From: Psychromonas sp. CNPT3
Lineage (GTDB): Bacteria > Pseudomonadota > Gammaproteobacteria > Enterobacterales > Psychromonadaceae
DNA length: 64,000 nucleotides
Reading direction: 5' to 3'
NCBI RefSeq assembly: GCF_000153405.2
Contig: NC_020802.1
Location: forward strand, 577,883-641,882
Positions 10,910 to 59,466 of the stretch are shown piece after piece (position 1 is the stretch's first letter; the number at the start of each line of letters is the position of its first letter). The notes under the pieces are model-generated. The model did no database searches. It saw only the letters and a program-made list of their open reading frames with translations, and was not told the DNA's origin. A program made the position numbers and the translations under genes.

Positions 10910-12277
10910 TTAAAGACTCATAGGTACGGTGATAATTGTTCCTATCACAACCGTAATTAGCCCAACGAGAACGGGAACGGATGTACGTTTAACAACATCA
11001 AATGGACTTAATTTAGCCATGCCACTTGTTGCGACAATAACGCCAGAAACGGGTGATATTGTACGACCAAGGTTTGAGGCTTGTAGCATTGGTATTATTA
11101 AAAATGCGGGGTGTAATCCTAATTTACCGGCTAATGCGGGTGCCAATTCGACAAATGCGAAAAAGGGCGCGTTACCGGAGCCTGTTGCGATGGCTGCTAC
11201 CATGGTGATACCTGTTAAAATTAACATCAATGCAATCCCGCCTGCACCCGCTTGCTCTGCTAAGCCAATTAAGTTATCGATAGCGCCGATAGACATTAAT
11301 CCTTGAGCAAAAACCCCTGCTCCGATCAAAAGCATAACAACACTTTTAAAAGCATCTCCCATACCGTCATAACATACACTTAAATCATCAAGCGTTTCTT
11401 TGCCATTAAAGCGTTTGCTAATGAAATCAACAACGGCAGAAATGAAGATAGACATAACGACAATGGTATAAATATCTAGTTTTACCCCTGGGATAGTAGA
11501 GCCGTTAAATAAGAATACACCAACGATAGGTAAAAATGGCAGAATGAAATAATAACTCGGTGCGGTAACGTTAATGGTGGTTATATCTGTTTTAACCATT
11601 GGCGTGTTGTTTTTCTTATCTAAATATCGATTCCAGAAAAAGATAGCGATGGCCATTGTAATGACGGCTGCAATGGAAACGGGTAATACAGTGCCCAGTG
11701 AAAATTGATCAAGTGGTATACCTGATTTTTCTGCAGCAATCACTACGTCACCTGAAGTGGGTGATAATATGACAGCTACCGGTGAGGCGCAGACAGACGC
11801 GGCGGCTGCGCGTGATATACCCATCGCTGTCATCATCGGGAACAATGTTGCCATTAATAATACGCCTAAACCCGTTGCAGAGCTGACTGCAAGTGACATT
11901 AAGCAGGCTACAAAATAGGCGACTACAAGTAATATATAGGGCGATTTTATAAACGCTAGAGGCCGTGCACATACTTTGACGACAACATTGTTGGCATCTA
12001 TTTTTGTCATATAAGCTGCGAAACCACATAAAAGCATGATTTGCATTCCTAAACCACCGCCTCGATATCGCAACATATATTTAATAAATTCAAGTGCATC
12101 GGTGAGAATGTTGCCGGTAGGCGTAATATTATCGGGTAGGATACTTTTTCCAAGTAAGCCTGTGATGATAAGTAGAATAACGCCGGCGGTGAGTAAGATC
12201 CCTGTTGCATTATATCGTTTAATAATGAAATAACCGACAGAGACGGTAATGATAAAGCCAATAAATAATTCTAGCAT
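10910..12277 (-). CDS. dcuC: Anaerobic C4-dicarboxylate transporter, DcuC type
   Basis: Inner-membrane carrier for fumarate/succinate exchange or succinate efflux in anaerobic growth. The 455-residue protein has about 12 hydrophobic segments and long blocks shared with E. coli DcuC: LCGFAAYMTKI, YFVACLMSLAVSSATG, GVLLMATLFPMM, SPTSGDVVIAAEKSG, TGSGNAPFFAFVE, and MLQASNLGRTISPVSGV near the C-terminus. Downstream on the minus strand is a strong terminator. Together with aspA 3.6 kb away, which makes fumarate from aspartate, it suggests fumarate respiration. No clear FNR site was found upstream. Confidence 0.9.
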   Translation of the reverse strand: MLELFIGFIITVSVGYFIIKRYNATGILLTAGVILLIITGLLGKSILPDNITPTGNILTDALEFIKYMLRYRGGGLGMQIMLLCGFAAYMTKIDANNVVVKVCARPLAFIKSPYILLVVAYFVACLMSLAVSSATGLGVLLMATLFPMMTAMGISRAAAASVCASPVAVILSPTSGDVVIAAEKSGIPLDQFSLGTVLPVSIAAVITMAIAIFFWNRYLDKKNNTPMVKTDITTINVTAPSYYFILPFLPIVGVFLFNGSTIPGVKLDIYTIVVMSIFISAVVDFISKRFNGKETLDDLSVCYDGMGDAFKSVVMLLIGAGVFAQGLMSIGAIDNLIGLAEQAGAGGIALMLILTGITMVAAIATGSGNAPFFAFVELAPALAGKLGLHPAFLIIPMLQASNLGRTISPVSGVIVATSGMAKLSPFDVVKRTSVPVLVGLITVVIGTIITVPMSL

Positions 12278-53793: not shown

Positions 53794-53831
53794 AGAAATG
53801 CTCAATTAAATTTAAAATTTTACCTTTGTAT

Positions 53832-53874: not shown

Positions 53875-54058
53875 TTGTCACCTCTCCTGTGCTCTATGCC
53901 CGTTATCATTTTCATCACGTAGTGAGCTTGAAAACCAATTCAGCGTGAGTGCGTTAAAGCATTCAATAAGGGGCATAAAACGCCATTAAATTCTCTTGGT
54001 ATATACTTAGCATGTACTTTTATCTTCTTTATTATTCATGTATGAAAGCGGGAATGTA

Positions 54059-55579
54059 ATGGCGATTGCAACGTTGTATTGTAGGAGCGTTTTAGGTATT
54101 GATGCAAAACAAGTCCTTGTTGAAGTGCATTTGAGTCGTGGTTTACCGACGTTTGCCTTGGTGGGTTTACCTGAAACATCGGTGAAAGAGGCCAAAGAAC
54201 GCGTGCGCAGTGCGATCATCAATAGCCATTTTATGTGGCCACATAATAAACGTATTATTGTTAATTTAGCGCCTGCTAATTTATCTAAAGAGGGCGGACG
54301 TTTCGATCTTGCCATAGCATTAGCTATTTTAATTGCCTCTGAGCAAATTCCAGCAGCCCCCTTTGAGCATTTTGAATGTATTGCTGAGCTTGCATTGTCA
54401 GGAGAGCTTCGCCCTGTCGATGCCATTATTCCTTGCGCGCTTGCTGCCAATAAAAAAAATAGAAGTTTATTAATATGTTTAGCGAATCAAAATGACGTTG
54501 CTTTAACAGGAAATCCTGCCTTGATTGCTCGAAGTTTAACGCAAGTGTGTGCATTTATGCTGGGTAAAATCGAGTTGCCTTGTGTGTTAGAACAAACACA
54601 TGAAGACAAACCACAAAAAACAGATATTAGTGATGTGCTAGGTCAGCAACAAGCCAAGCGCGTATTAGAAATCGCCGCCACAGGTCAGCATAATTTATTA
54701 TTAATCGGTCCACCTGGCACCGGTAAAAGTATGCTAGCAGAGCGTTTTATGACGTTACTTCCCGCTTTGTCGAAAGCGCAGGCTCTCGAAACGGCAACCC
54801 TTTACTCTGTGTGCGGACAGGTACGAGAAAATGGTTATCAGCCCCCTTTTAGAGCGCCACATCATAGTGCATCGTTAGTTGCGTTAGTAGGAGGGGGCAC
54901 TCGTCCTAAACCGGGTGAAATATCTTTGGCGCATAACGGTATTTTATTTTTAGATGAACTTGCCGAGTTTCCTCGCGCCGTGCTTGATAGTTTGCGTCAA
55001 CCGCTAGAAACTAAAAACGTGAGTATTTCCCGTGTTTTACAGCAAGTGACATTTCCGGCTAATTTTCAGTTAATTGCAGCCATGAACCCGAGCCCTTGTG
55101 GGTTTATCAGTGGAGAGAAAAGGCGCAGTACACCGGATCAAATTCTACGTTATTTAGGGCGTTTATCAGGGCCATTTTTAGATCGATTTGCATTATCAAT
55201 CATGGTGCCTTTATTACCCAAAGGGATCCTGGCCAGCTCACAAATGGGTCAAACCATAAACAATGAAAGTAGTCAGCAGATCCAAACACGGGTTGCGAGT
55301 GCACGTAAAAGACAAATATCAAGACAAGGAAAATTAAATAATGCATTAAATGTAAAAGAGGTGGCTTTATTTTGTCAGCTTACGCCTGCAGATGCTCTAT
55401 TTTTGGAGGGGGCGTTAGATAAAATGGGATTATCTATTCGCGCTTGGCATAGTTTGTTGAAAGTGGCGCGTAGTATTGCTGATTTGGGGCATTGTGAGAA
55501 TATTACGCGCGATCATTTATATGAAGCGCTCAATTATCGAGCCATGGATAGATTATTAAAAAGTATTTTAGATAATTAA
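54059..55579 (+). CDS. comM: ComM/YifB-family AAA+ Mg chelatase-like ATPase
   Basis: Hexameric branch-migration helicase that aids integration of DNA during natural transformation (shown for Vibrio and Acinetobacter ComM). From the ATG at 54059 it has 506 residues, the same as E. coli YifB. An N-terminal Lon-protease-like S5 domain (GLPTFALVGLPETSVKEAKERVRSA) leads to the AAA+ core with Walker A LLIGPPGTGKSMLAERF near residue 220, Walker B ILFLDELAEF and RAPHHSASLVALVGGG, and ends in the Mg-chelatase-like C-terminal domain. It suggests competence, though comM is also found in non-competent species. Confidence 0.95.
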   Translation: MAIATLYCRSVLGIDAKQVLVEVHLSRGLPTFALVGLPETSVKEAKERVRSAIINSHFMWPHNKRIIVNLAPANLSKEGGRFDLAIALAILIASEQIPAAPFEHFECIAELALSGELRPVDAIIPCALAANKKNRSLLICLANQNDVALTGNPALIARSLTQVCAFMLGKIELPCVLEQTHEDKPQKTDISDVLGQQQAKRVLEIAATGQHNLLLIGPPGTGKSMLAERFMTLLPALSKAQALETATLYSVCGQVRENGYQPPFRAPHHSASLVALVGGGTRPKPGEISLAHNGILFLDELAEFPRAVLDSLRQPLETKNVSISRVLQQVTFPANFQLIAAMNPSPCGFISGEKRRSTPDQILRYLGRLSGPFLDRFALSIMVPLLPKGILASSQMGQTINNESSQQIQTRVASARKRQISRQGKLNNALNVKEVALFCQLTPADALFLEGALDKMGLSIRAWHSLLKVARSIADLGHCENITRDHLYEALNYRAMDRLLKSILDN

Positions 55580-55740
55580 CGTGTTGTTGAAAATGCGACT
55601 AACCAATGATGAATACAAAGGTAAAGTTGTTATTAATAAATAAGTTACGGGCTCACATTTGTCAGAGTGAAATTTATAATTGTTAAACCTCTTCTGTTAT
55701 TATTTTATTAAAGAGTAAAAACAAGGAAGAAATTTAAACG

Positions 55741-56670
55741 ATGAAATTATCACAGTTAAATGCATTTCGGGCAGTGATTGAGTGCCAAACCGTAACGAGT
55801 GCGGCGGAGCGTCTTAATCTTAGTCAGCCGAGTGTCAGTCGGAGTATCTCTGCTTTGGAGAGAAAGGTTGGTTTTAAGCTTTTTATTCGCAAAGGTAACC
55901 GTTTATTATTGAGTGACGAAGGTAAAGCTTTTTACTTTGAAGTTGCTAATGTATTTGATGCGTTGATCAGTTTAGATCGCGCAGCAGTATCAATCAGTGG
56001 TCTGCATTTTGGTAGTTTTAAAATAGGTATCATGCCGTTATTTTCAGATTGCTTTTTACCGCGTATTTTAGCGTCTATTTTAAAGCAATCAGGTAAAATG
56101 AAATTATCGGTAAAAACGGAGCGCTCAGAAAGTGTTTTGCAACGCGTACAAAGCCAAACGATTGATATTGGTTTAGCATTAATTGATGGTGATCATCCTG
56201 GGGTGATGTCGCAAAAAGTGATCACAGAATGCGTTTGTCTCATTCCTGCATCTTCACCTTTAGCAAAGTTAGACTGTATTGATATTTATGATCTGGCGGG
56301 GCTTATTTTAATTCGCCATGAAAAAGATCGTACGCAGTTGAAGGTGGATAGATTATTACGTCGTTATAATATAAGTGTTCAAGAGAGCGTTAAAGTCTCC
56401 TTCGCAAGTACAGCTGCTGCATTAGTCAAAGAGTGTGTTGGTATTGCTATCACCGACCCTTTTACAGCATATACCGCCACAGAGTCTGATAGCGTTGTTA
56501 TGCGCCCCTTAAAATTTTCATTACCCTTTGAATTTTCAATATTATACCCGTCATTAAAACCTTTACATCGCTACGCTTCATTATTTATTGAGCACTTTAA
56601 AGCCTGTGCGGATGAGGCCAATATTGCATTAAATATTGGCCCGATAATCAATCTAGATAAAAACAAATAA
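55741..56670 (+). CDS. LysR-family regulator (NocR/OccR-like)
   Basis: A 309-residue transcription regulator. Residues 1-60 are the winged helix (LSQLNAFRAVIECQTVTSAAERLNLSQPSVSRSISALERKVGFKLF); the rest is the periplasmic-binding-protein-like ligand domain. The ligand domain style is that of the NocR/OccR/CatM group seen with opine and amino-acid catabolism. It is on the same strand as, and about 200 bases upstream of, an octopine/nopaline-type dehydrogenase gene, so it likely controls that gene and the carrier. The ligand is inferred. Confidence 0.88.
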   Translation: MKLSQLNAFRAVIECQTVTSAAERLNLSQPSVSRSISALERKVGFKLFIRKGNRLLLSDEGKAFYFEVANVFDALISLDRAAVSISGLHFGSFKIGIMPLFSDCFLPRILASILKQSGKMKLSVKTERSESVLQRVQSQTIDIGLALIDGDHPGVMSQKVITECVCLIPASSPLAKLDCIDIYDLAGLILIRHEKDRTQLKVDRLLRRYNISVQESVKVSFASTAAALVKECVGIAITDPFTAYTATESDSVVMRPLKFSLPFEFSILYPSLKPLHRYASLFIEHFKACADEANIALNIGPIINLDKNK

Positions 56671-56872
56671 AATAATCGAGGTGAACATCACAGTTATTAA
56701 GCATTCAACTTTAAAATAAAAAAACAATATACACCTTTCAAATCAATTAGATAGGGGTTTGGTAGGTAGAGGTATTACTTTTTTGTATACAACCTAACTT
56801 TTTTGACATTGTTTAAAATAACGCTGTTTTTTATGCTGAGGTATCAAGTTAAATCATCATAAAGGAGTTATT

Positions 56873-57982
56873 ATGTCAACACGAGTTTCGGTTATAGGGA
56901 CAGGTAATGCGGGTTTAACCGCCGCTTATCATTTTTCATTAGAGGGTGCACAAGTTTGCTTATACGGTGCAAGTGGTTTCGATCAAGCTCTTGACGATAT
57001 AAAAAATCAAGGTGGGATCACCGCATTACCCTCATATAATGATGTGGATTTAACCTACTCCGGTTTTCAATCTATTCACAAAGTCACTCGTGATTTAGCA
57101 GAAACGATTGCCTTTTCTGAGTTATTAATTTTACCAGTCCCCTCGTTCGCACAAGAGCCTCTTTTCATTAAAATGTTACCCCATTTAAAGGATGGGCAAA
57201 TTATTATGCTTATGCCGGGTAATTATGGATCCCTAGTTTTAAACCGTTTAAAAATAGAGCAAGGTTATCAACATCTCGATATTACGTTTGTAGATGCTAT
57301 ATCAATACCTTGGGCAACACGTATTGTGGCACCAGCAACAATTGCCATTTTAGGGATGAAAGAATTCTTACCTGTTGCAGCCTTTCCTGCTCATAAAACG
57401 ACACACGCCATTGCAAAATTACAATCTATTATGCCTCTTCCATTAAAGCCTCTCAAAAATGTTATTTGTGCAGGGCTTGAAAATATTAATTTTGGCGGAC
57501 ATCCTTTATTAACGACGCTGAGCATGGGTTTATTGGAAAATTTTAATGGTGAATTTAACTACTATAAAGATTGTTGCTCTAAATCAACGGCTAAGGCTGC
57601 ATCTGTGATGGAAAAAGAGCGTATTAATATTGGCCTTGCATTAGGTTTAGAATTGGTGCCTGAACTCGATGCGATGAATGCGTTGTATGCGATGCAATGT
57701 GAAAATGTTTATGAAGTAAATAGAACCTCTGAAACACATGGAAAATTAAATAGTGCACCAAATTCTGCATCAAGCCGCTATATTACTGAAGATGCAGCTT
57801 ATTTATTGGTTCCCTGTCATGAATTTGGCCTATTAACCAATACCGCAACGCCCCTCGTGACTTCCTGCTTACATATAGATAATGCTTATAATAGTGAAAA
57901 TTATTTTATCTCGGGGCGGACGTTAAAAAAAATGGGGTTAGCTGATATGTCAGTTGCTCAAATAATGAAATTTATTGCTTAA
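56873..57982 (+). CDS. Octopine/nopaline-type NAD(P)-dependent opine dehydrogenase
   Basis: A 369-residue oxidoreductase. The N-terminal Rossmann fold reads VSVIGTGNAGLTAAYHFSLEGAQV with GxGNAG. The second half has the octopine-dehydrogenase C-terminal domain pattern, including NVICAGLENINFGGHPLLTTLS near residue 205, where the family has its catalytic histidine. Enzymes of this group make or split N-(carboxyalkyl)amino acids: octopine, nopaline and related opines. AAGGAG precedes the ATG. The gene ends 18 bases before a YfcC-type carrier and follows a NocR/OccR-like regulator, together a plausible opine-use unit. Direction (breakdown or synthesis) and substrate are inferred. Confidence 0.87.
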   Translation: MSTRVSVIGTGNAGLTAAYHFSLEGAQVCLYGASGFDQALDDIKNQGGITALPSYNDVDLTYSGFQSIHKVTRDLAETIAFSELLILPVPSFAQEPLFIKMLPHLKDGQIIMLMPGNYGSLVLNRLKIEQGYQHLDITFVDAISIPWATRIVAPATIAILGMKEFLPVAAFPAHKTTHAIAKLQSIMPLPLKPLKNVICAGLENINFGGHPLLTTLSMGLLENFNGEFNYYKDCCSKSTAKAASVMEKERINIGLALGLELVPELDAMNALYAMQCENVYEVNRTSETHGKLNSAPNSASSRYITEDAAYLLVPCHEFGLLTNTATPLVTSCLHIDNAYNSENYFISGRTLKKMGLADMSVAQIMKFIA

Positions 57983-58000
57983 TATAAGGAGATACTAACA

Positions 58001-59404
58001 ATGAAATTTAAATTCCCATCTGCTTATACCATTCTATTCGCTCTTATCGTGTTAATGGCCTGTTTAACTTGGATCATTCCTGCAGGTCAATATCAAATGA
58101 TAATGAATGATGAGTTAGGCAAAGAAGTCCCTAAAGTGGGATCATATCAGACGGTTGATGCTAATCCTCAAGGTATTGTTGAGGTGTTAATGGCGCCCGT
58201 GCAAGGGTTTTATGATCCCGCTACTTATAGTGCGCGGGCGATTGATATTGCATTATTCGTTTTAATCATAGGTGGATTTATTGGCGTAGTAACCAGGACG
58301 GGCGCAATAGATTCCGGAATCGCTGCAACGATGACTCGCCTTAAAGGCCGAGAAAAGTGGATGATCCCTATTTTAATGGGATTATTTGCAATGGGAGGCA
58401 CTGTCTATGGTATGGCAGAAGAAACATTGCCATTTTATATTTTATTAATCCCTGTGATGATTGCCGCAGGTTACGACACTATTGTTGGTGTTGCTATTAT
58501 TATGCTTGGTGCAGGTATCGGCTGTTTAGGCTCGACGATCAATCCGTTTGCAACTGTTATTGCTTCAAATGCAGCCGGTATTAATTTTATGGAAGGCTTC
58601 GGATTACGTGCCATTATATTATTAGTTGGTTGGCTACTTTGTGTTATTTATGTGATGCGTTATGCGAAAAAAATAAAAAAAGATCCTTCTAAATCATTAG
58701 TAGCATCCCAAAAAGAGGCTAATGAAAAACATTTTTTACATGATAAAAGTAACACTAAATTAAGTCTAACCAATAACCATAAAATAGTGCTTATCCTTTT
58801 TGGACTCTCTTTTTCTATTATGGTTTGGGGCGTCTCGATAGGTGGCTGGTGGATGGCGGAGCTCTCTGCGCTATTTATTGGCGCAAGTATTGTTATCGGT
58901 CTGGTTGCGCGTTTATCTGAAACACAATTAACAGATAGCTTCATTGATGGGGCAAGGGATTTATTGGGCGTGGCATTGATCATCGCCATTGCTCGTGGCT
59001 TAGTGGTGATCATGGATAATGGTAATATCACACATAGTATATTGTTTTTTGCTGAGGGTTTATTAGGCGGGCTAAATGATATCGTATTTATCAATGCAAT
59101 TTATTGGATAGAAGTCGTATTATGTTTCATTATCCCATCATCATCGGGCCTTGCTGTATTAACGATGCCTATTATGGCTCCGTTAGCTGATTTTGCAGGT
59201 GTTGGGCGAGAACTTGTGGTGACTGCATTTCAGTCTGCATCGGGTTTGCCTAATATTATTACACCGACATCGGGGGTGGTCATGGGGGCGCTTGCTATTG
59301 GTAGGGTGAGTTATGCGTCATGGCTTAAATTTACGTTGCCATTGATAGCCATGTTGTCCGTTATGATCATGGTATTACTGAGTTTTGCTGTTACTTTTAG
59401 CTAG
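58001..59404 (+). CDS. YfcC-type carrier (DcuC/ArcD-like superfamily)
   Basis: A 467-residue inner-membrane protein with about 12 hydrophobic segments. It begins FPSAYTILFALIVLMACLTWIIPAGQY, the family start, and has GGTVYGMAEETLPFYILLIPV, GAGIGCLGSTINPFATVIASNAAG near residue 170, and PTSGVVMGALAIGRVSYASWLKF near the end. Members are annotated as C4-dicarboxylate or basic amino acid antiporters. It has the AAGGAG ribosome binding site and is 18 bases after the opine dehydrogenase, so it most likely moves the opine or its amino acid product. A terminator follows. Confidence 0.87.
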   Translation: MKFKFPSAYTILFALIVLMACLTWIIPAGQYQMIMNDELGKEVPKVGSYQTVDANPQGIVEVLMAPVQGFYDPATYSARAIDIALFVLIIGGFIGVVTRTGAIDSGIAATMTRLKGREKWMIPILMGLFAMGGTVYGMAEETLPFYILLIPVMIAAGYDTIVGVAIIMLGAGIGCLGSTINPFATVIASNAAGINFMEGFGLRAIILLVGWLLCVIYVMRYAKKIKKDPSKSLVASQKEANEKHFLHDKSNTKLSLTNNHKIVLILFGLSFSIMVWGVSIGGWWMAELSALFIGASIVIGLVARLSETQLTDSFIDGARDLLGVALIIAIARGLVVIMDNGNITHSILFFAEGLLGGLNDIVFINAIYWIEVVLCFIIPSSSGLAVLTMPIMAPLADFAGVGRELVVTAFQSASGLPNIITPTSGVVMGALAIGRVSYASWLKFTLPLIAMLSVMIMVLLSFAVTFS

Positions 59405-59430: not shown

Positions 59431-59466
59431 AAAAAAAGTCCGCTTTAAAATTAAGCGGACTTTTTT
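59431..59466. terminator. Bidirectional terminator between yfcC-like gene and valS
   Basis: AAAAAAGTCCGCTT and AAGCGGACTTTTTT around a seven-base loop. It serves both converging units. Confidence 0.93.

Follow-up and report, generated by a model that had tools for sequence, protein, structure and literature searches.

A LysR-type regulator, an opine dehydrogenase-family enzyme and a YfcC-type carrier form a conserved gene trio, probably for opine use, in marine Gammaproteobacteria

In molluscs, worms and other invertebrates of the sea, opines rank among the main end products of anaerobic muscle metabolism. The stretch of DNA analyzed here, 64,000 nucleotides of Psychromonas sp. CNPT3 (contig NC_020802.1, positions 577,883 to 641,882; hereafter the window), holds three genes on one strand that encode a LysR-type regulator, an enzyme of the opine dehydrogenase (ODH) family and a YfcC/DcuC-family carrier. 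We consider it probable, at roughly two chances in three, that this trio is a self-contained, regulated unit for the uptake and oxidative cleavage of an octopine-type opine, that is, an opine containing a basic amino acid.

Results

The locus comprises the following features:

55741-56670, plus strand: LysR-type regulator with an effector domain of the OccR kind (309 aa; PF00126 and PF03466)
56773-56789, plus strand: conserved LysR-type box TATTACTTTTTTGTATA (TAT-N11-ATA), 100 bp before the ODH ATG
56809-56837, plus strand: promoter-like pair TTGTTT - 17 bp - TATGCT, from the alignment of 35 spacers
56873-57982, plus strand: NAD(P)-type ODH family enzyme (369 aa; PF02317, E 7.8e-31; triad H210/R302/D307)
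58001-59404, plus strand: YfcC/DcuC-family carrier (467 aa; PF03606, E 1.3e-125)
59432-59466, strand-neutral: stem-loop terminator between the carrier gene and the convergent valS, 14 pairs with a T tail

An earlier reading of the letters alone (the sequence-only reading) had placed three genes of these families on one strand, and this is borne out by the open reading frames (ORFs) and Pfam matches. The strong ribosome-binding sites that it described can be read directly ahead of all three genes (AAGGAAG at 55723-55729, AAAGGAG at 56861-56867 and AAGGAG at 57986-57991), the ODH and YfcC genes having strong Shine-Dalgarno sites. The tight spacing that it reported holds for enzyme and carrier, which are 18 bp apart, and not for the regulator, which lies 202 bp off, across a conserved regulatory spacer of its own. 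The stem-loop at 59432-59466, with T and A tails (RNA fold -19.8 kcal/mol, z -3.1), closes the trio unit and is common to the convergent valS downstream; upstream, the trio is flanked by a comM/yifB-like gene (54038-55579).

The order and strand of the three genes are kept in 34 other marine gammaproteobacterial loci with distinct spacers, so the trio is not a chance association; co-conservation in related marine genomes, on which the sequence-only reading depended, holds. One scan of GTDB contigs gave 16 trio loci in Moritella, Photobacterium and Vibrio, and further genome searches added Vibrio loci and three further families. The genes on either side of the trio vary between loci. The ODH itself is patchy, occurring in 2/24 Psychromonas, 10/197 Vibrio, 7/23 genomes of genus g25 and 3/10 of family f16. 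At an identity of at least 54%, the regulator is present in the same 10 of 197 Vibrio genomes as the ODH and, within Psychromonas genomes, only in that of the window. Taken together, the trio looks like an accessory unit that has spread by horizontal transfer. The E. coli genomes searched held no trio, only a relative of the carrier. In families f16 and f7, genes for a TonB-dependent receptor and then a TPR-sulfotransferase follow the trio on the same strand (L070:2018-6278, L072:2374-6476, L073:10566-14680), and the receptor suggests a role in uptake.

Psychromonas sp. CD1, a bacterium of hadal amphipod gut with a genome of reduced size (PMC5893861), lacks a single continuous stretch comprising comM, lysR and the LysR box (L001:7840-9107), and retains the promoter-like portion of the spacer, the ODH and YfcC. 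No regulator was found in its genome (G004) at E<=1e-40. The joint loss fits a regulator and box that belong together. The ODH has a dN of 0.06 and a dS of 1.05, values indicative of purifying selection, and we count the keeping of enzyme and carrier under such selection after loss of the regulator in favor of an opine-use unit.

More distant relatives of the ODH, about 50-55% identical, are carried by gut metagenome-assembled genomes (MAGs) of Faecousia, Blautia, Brachyspira and Tissierellia. In the Blautia MAG (L018:644-5338) the YfcC gene stands before the ODH gene, and a two-component system takes the place of the LysR protein; this locus is a differently regulated version of the YfcC-ODH pair. 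Two gut anaerobe MAGs, this one and L017:1-2446, have a 54-55% identical ODH adjoining a two-component system, L018 having YfcC as well.

The 35 aligned spacers share three conserved islands, namely the box ATTAC-TTTTTGCATA, a CATTG element and a TTCCTTAGTCTGA-like region. The pattern YAT-N4-TTT-N4-ATV occurs in 34 of the 35, against 0.31 expected in shuffles, and the box TATTACTTTTTTGTATA is matched exactly at a single place in the window, where 0.23 matches with up to one mismatch would be expected. A T-N11-A box before the regulated operon, a feature of OccR/NocR-type LysR proteins, is therefore present, and with the promoter-like pair as promoter this candidate box would be centered near -60 of the predicted start, the usual position for an activator. 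The CATTG element overlaps the first hexamer (TTGTTT) of the promoter-like pair, which was not among the hits of an automatic scan.

When the effector domain of the regulator was compared alone with the PDB, the best match was OccR (5vvh, E 1.2e-15), 11 orders of magnitude ahead of the next, CmpR (E 1.1e-4), in agreement with the NocR/OccR-like regulator of the sequence-only reading. For the whole protein, the closest NCBIfam model was LysR PRK11013. Orthologs beside the enzyme are 54-70% identical in vibrio-type loci and 42-45% in the f16 and f7 loci.

A sister of this regulator occurs in two Vibrio genomes that lack the ODH (G552 and G471). It is 43% identical to the window regulator and 55% to the f7 module regulator, falls in the same clade as the f16 and f7 module regulators, and has an effector domain that is again closest to OccR. 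Its neighbors (L124:2933-7782, L125:3001-7773) encode a family-3 binding protein, OdhB (FAD), a 2Fe-2S protein and OdhA (FAD/BFD). The binding protein scores above the cut-off of the lysine/arginine/ornithine model and is 35% identical to OccT, and OdhB, the 2Fe-2S protein and OdhA are 44, 45 and 39% identical, in the same order, to the annotated OoxB, 2Fe-2S protein and OoxA of A. vitis pAvF25c, whose locus further encodes OccM/P/T, an arginase and an ornithine cyclodeaminase. Flavin opine dehydrogenases are known to have this B-C-A order (PMC4575208). Upstream of the cluster, both Vibrio genomes, which are close relatives, have a matching box, TATAACCTTTCGGAATA. This is a probable marine opine oxidase cluster, and because the sister regulator adjoins it, a single regulator lineage appears to control two dissimilar sets of enzyme and transporter for the same substrate class. 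A strict either/or of NAD enzyme and flavin enzyme was rejected, as two g25 genomes hold the trio together with a 66-67% identical OdhB.

The ODH scores 107.5 bits on PF02317 (cut-off 30). Its phmmer matches are CENDH (N-(1-D-carboxyethyl)-L-norvaline dehydrogenase of Arthrobacter sp. 1C; 1bg6, E 9.7e-30) and octopine dehydrogenase (OcDH); a family profile gave CENDH at E 4.4e-75, OcDH at E 3.7e-26 and yersinopine dehydrogenase at E 0.004 only, CENDH being the closest by sequence. For an AlphaFold2 model (pLDDT 86, with lower confidence confined to 218-224 and 292-303), each of the 12 best PDB matches is an opine dehydrogenase (Z 42-27), with CENDH at 42, OcDH at 34 and the pseudopaline, yersinopine and staphylopine dehydrogenases at 31-28; ketopantoate reductases reach at most 25. 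Search, profile and model alike assign the enzyme to the opine dehydrogenases within this fold and not to a non-opine branch, as had been supposed. In a tree the ODH clade has support of 100/100, and its relation to CENDH, the Ti synthases and OcDH was not resolved there.

The Rossmann GxGNxG motif is present (G9-x-G11-N12-x-G14), and the catalytic H210 and D307 and the pyrophosphate-binding R302, invariant over 20 diverse sequences, align to H212, D329 and R324 of OcDH. The active-site comparison with OcDH that the earlier reading called for thus gave a divided result, as this His/Arg/Asp center is kept and the arginine contacts are not. In OcDH the guanidinium group is bound by Glu142 and Trp278 (PMC2924402), whose places are taken here by Ile143 and Ala267. 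For this reason the enzyme is not filed as octopine dehydrogenase (EC 1.5.1.11) by sequence, and the use of these contacts as proof of arginine specificity was rejected. Two invariant acidic residues, Asp141 and Glu203, lie near the pocket. Glu203 aligns to OcDH Met206, a residue that contacts the guanidinium group as well, through its backbone. Every member of the ODH clade has this Glu, and the other compared sequences have none in that column. As a hypothesis, an acidic residue has shifted its place in the pocket, with Glu203 as the candidate substitute.

An active-site Trp that has been described as common to every opine dehydrogenase (PMC10787698) is Ala or Ser in the ODH clade. The annotated lysopine/octopine dehydrogenase and the vitopine synthase lack this Trp as well, which makes the feature neither universal nor defining. 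Plasmid opine synthases and dehydrogenases were set aside as a guide to substrate; at 20-28% identity, and beside MATE, MFS or symporter genes, they give no information on the substrate of the trio. The source genome has a second, distant ODH-family gene (L075:7713-8915; G000:C1:1703781-1704914; 24-25% identity), common to several other Psychromonas.

The carrier scores 420 bits on the DcuC family PF03606 (cut-off 23.1). Its closest NCBIfam model is YfcC PRK11588, at 311 bits, under the 500-bit cut-off, as are the carriers of arginine deiminase operons (286-299 bits). The closest E. coli relative (62% identity, locus L090) is the fourth gene of such an operon. In the carrier tree, the module carriers (100/98), the arginine-deiminase-operon carriers (97/92) and carriers adjacent to ornithine-racemase-like (Orr) genes, whose products reach 448-457 bits against a cut-off of 480, form one group, set apart from other YfcC paralogs with moderate support (86/89). 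YfcC in arginine deiminase clusters has been taken as an arginine/ornithine antiporter (PMC9636832), and yfcC of C. difficile is preceded by a lysine riboswitch (PMC11477304).

The source genome has its own YfcC-ADI-CK-OTC operon (ADI, arginine deiminase) just upstream of the window (L121, G000:C1:568000-579500), about 57 kb from the trio, and its YfcC is 64% identical to the trio carrier. In Vibrio G475 (L120:7311-18501), a lone arginine deiminase gene is directly followed by the trio, and the trio directly by a full YfcC-ADI-CK-OTC operon, an arrangement that we count in favor of an opine-use unit. Five DcuC-family proteins are encoded in the source genome, one of them in the window at 10910-12277 on the minus strand.

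Discussion

In the working that we propose, the YfcC-type carrier would import the opine through the inner membrane, perhaps as an exchanger that lets out ornithine or a different basic amino acid. The ODH, a soluble enzyme of Rossmann fold, would oxidize the secondary amine with NAD(P)+ via a His210-Asp307 relay; the products would be NAD(P)H, the freed amino acid and pyruvate or some other 2-keto acid. Sensing would fall to the LysR protein, which would respond to the opine, bind the TAT-N11-ATA box and control enzyme and carrier as a single transcript. Freed arginine could pass to an arginine deiminase operon where one is present, as it is just outside the window in the source genome. Substrate, direction, transport mode and activation are, in this scheme, our reading of sequence and gene context.

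We favor the catabolic direction because of the OccR-like sensor, the sister locus, the TonB-dependent receptor and the Arthrobacter enzyme as a precedent for catabolism, strain 1C growing on an opine and having an NAD+-dependent CENDH (PMC4575208). Regulator kinship, carrier branch and sister locus are the reasons for favoring a basic-amino-acid opine, most likely built on arginine, or else on ornithine or lysine. Of the opine use envisaged by the sequence-only reading, this octopine-like form is what the results indicate; strombine, alanopine and tauropine, which it had also named, gained no specific support.

Several points weigh against uptake and cleavage of such an opine. The equilibrium of the opine dehydrogenase reaction favors synthesis, and plant-associated opine users depend on flavin enzymes. 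The guanidinium contacts of OcDH are replaced, the substrates of YfcC carriers have been little studied, and the family of the flavin cluster also takes in hydroxyproline and proline dehydrogenase relatives (PMC4575208). Arginine deiminase is missing from f16, f7 and most of g25. Since the gene occurs in 165 of 197 Vibrio genomes, finding it in every Vibrio that bears the trio is uninformative, and its co-occurrence was dropped as evidence.

Because the equilibrium and the anaerobic gut relatives argue for synthesis, the main rival is opine fermentation. The ODH would then work reductively, like the enzyme of invertebrate muscle, and would couple imported arginine (or ornithine or lysine) with pyruvate and re-oxidize NADH, with YfcC taking the amino acid in and the opine out. 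The hosts are facultative anaerobes, the Blautia gut MAG (L018) holds a related YfcC-ODH pair under a two-component system instead of an OccR-like regulator, and the carrier branch includes arginine/ornithine exchangers (PMC9636832). We nevertheless hold fermentation to be unlikely in view of the OccR-like effector domain, the sister regulator beside a flavin opine dehydrogenase, the TonB-dependent receptor in two families and the patchy distribution typical of an accessory gene.

Somewhat less probable still is that the substrate is an opine, or N-carboxyalkyl amino acid, of a non-basic kind, neutral or acidic for example (strombine, alanopine, tauropine or the aspartate type). Such opines are common in marine invertebrates, and the absence of the Glu142 and Trp278 contacts would suit them. 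Neutral amino acids are the substrates of CENDH, the closest characterized enzyme, and aspartate is preferred by ODHs from hot springs (PMC10787698). However, the carrier branch and the binding protein of the sister locus point to arginine, ornithine or lysine, the effector domain is OccR-like, and the invariant Asp141 and Glu203 near the pocket are acidic. Synthesis and export of a staphylopine/pseudopaline-like metallophore is very improbable, since the resemblance of the ODH model to the pseudopaline, yersinopine and staphylopine dehydrogenases (Z 31-28) is set against a sequence closest to CENDH (yersinopine dehydrogenase at E 0.004 only), no nicotianamine-synthase-like or metal-transport gene recognized among the window ORFs beside the trio, and no conserved third neighbor at the other loci, where neighbors vary and were identified in part.

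The nearest solved relative, CENDH, is a soluble NAD-linked opine dehydrogenase from an opine-growing bacterium; the window enzyme has the same family, a whole-length match and the His-Arg-Asp center in common with it, but is only about 23% identical and has Ala/Ser in place of the conserved active-site Trp. We know of no trio arrangement for CENDH. Scallop OcDH (3c7a/3iqd) has the same fold (Z 34) and catalytic His/Arg/Asp, but is 15% identical, has arginine side-chain contacts that are not kept here, and is a muscle enzyme working in synthesis.

The proposed overall task of the trio is that of the occ and noc systems of Ti and opine-catabolic plasmids (OccR/NocR, an ABC transporter and OoxBA/NoxBA), which sense, import and oxidize an opine, and the OccR-type effector domain is common to both. 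Unlike these systems, the trio has one YfcC/DcuC carrier in place of the ABC transporter, a Rossmann-fold NAD(P)-type enzyme in place of the FAD/FMN/2Fe-2S heteromer, and no arginase or ornithine cyclodeaminase beside it. The sequence-only reading had drawn this distinction correctly, as neither an ABC opine transporter nor an OoxBA/NoxBA flavin enzyme was found in 48.9-63.9 kb of the window, and the genome has no OdhB/OoxB relative at E<=1e-50. With the arginine deiminase operon of E. coli (arcA-arcC-argF-yfcC) the trio shares its kind of carrier, which is 62-64% identical to the carriers of such operons and on the same tree branch; it differs in its enzyme cargo, and the module carriers form a supported clade of their own.

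In the literature searched, most subscription papers being outside its coverage, there was no report of an opine dehydrogenase linked to YfcC and nothing direct on marine bacterial opine use. The parts are known; their arrangement, an OccR-type sensor with a soluble NAD(P)-type ODH and a single YfcC, was not found described there.

If the trio does take up and cleave an opine, it would be a gene marker by which opine use could be recognized in Vibrio, Photobacterium, Moritella and Psychromonas, a number of which come from invertebrate hosts, and a likely cargo could be assigned to one branch of the poorly characterized YfcC carriers. A wider picture, which we offer tentatively and think rather doubtful as a whole, is a marine opine fermentation cycle. 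YfcC would exchange incoming octopine for outgoing ornithine, the ODH would yield pyruvate and arginine, and the deiminase operon would turn the arginine into ornithine, ammonia and ATP, such that opines of invertebrate muscle might feed bacteria of the sea and the gut with or without oxygen. One OccR-like regulator lineage would then preside over either the NAD enzyme and its carrier or an ABC and flavin set, a wholesale exchange of enzyme and transporter under one sensor.

As a separate observation on the flank of the locus, the comM/yifB-like gene is bracketed by a 16-nt inverted repeat (94%), with arms at 53816-53831 and 55613-55628.

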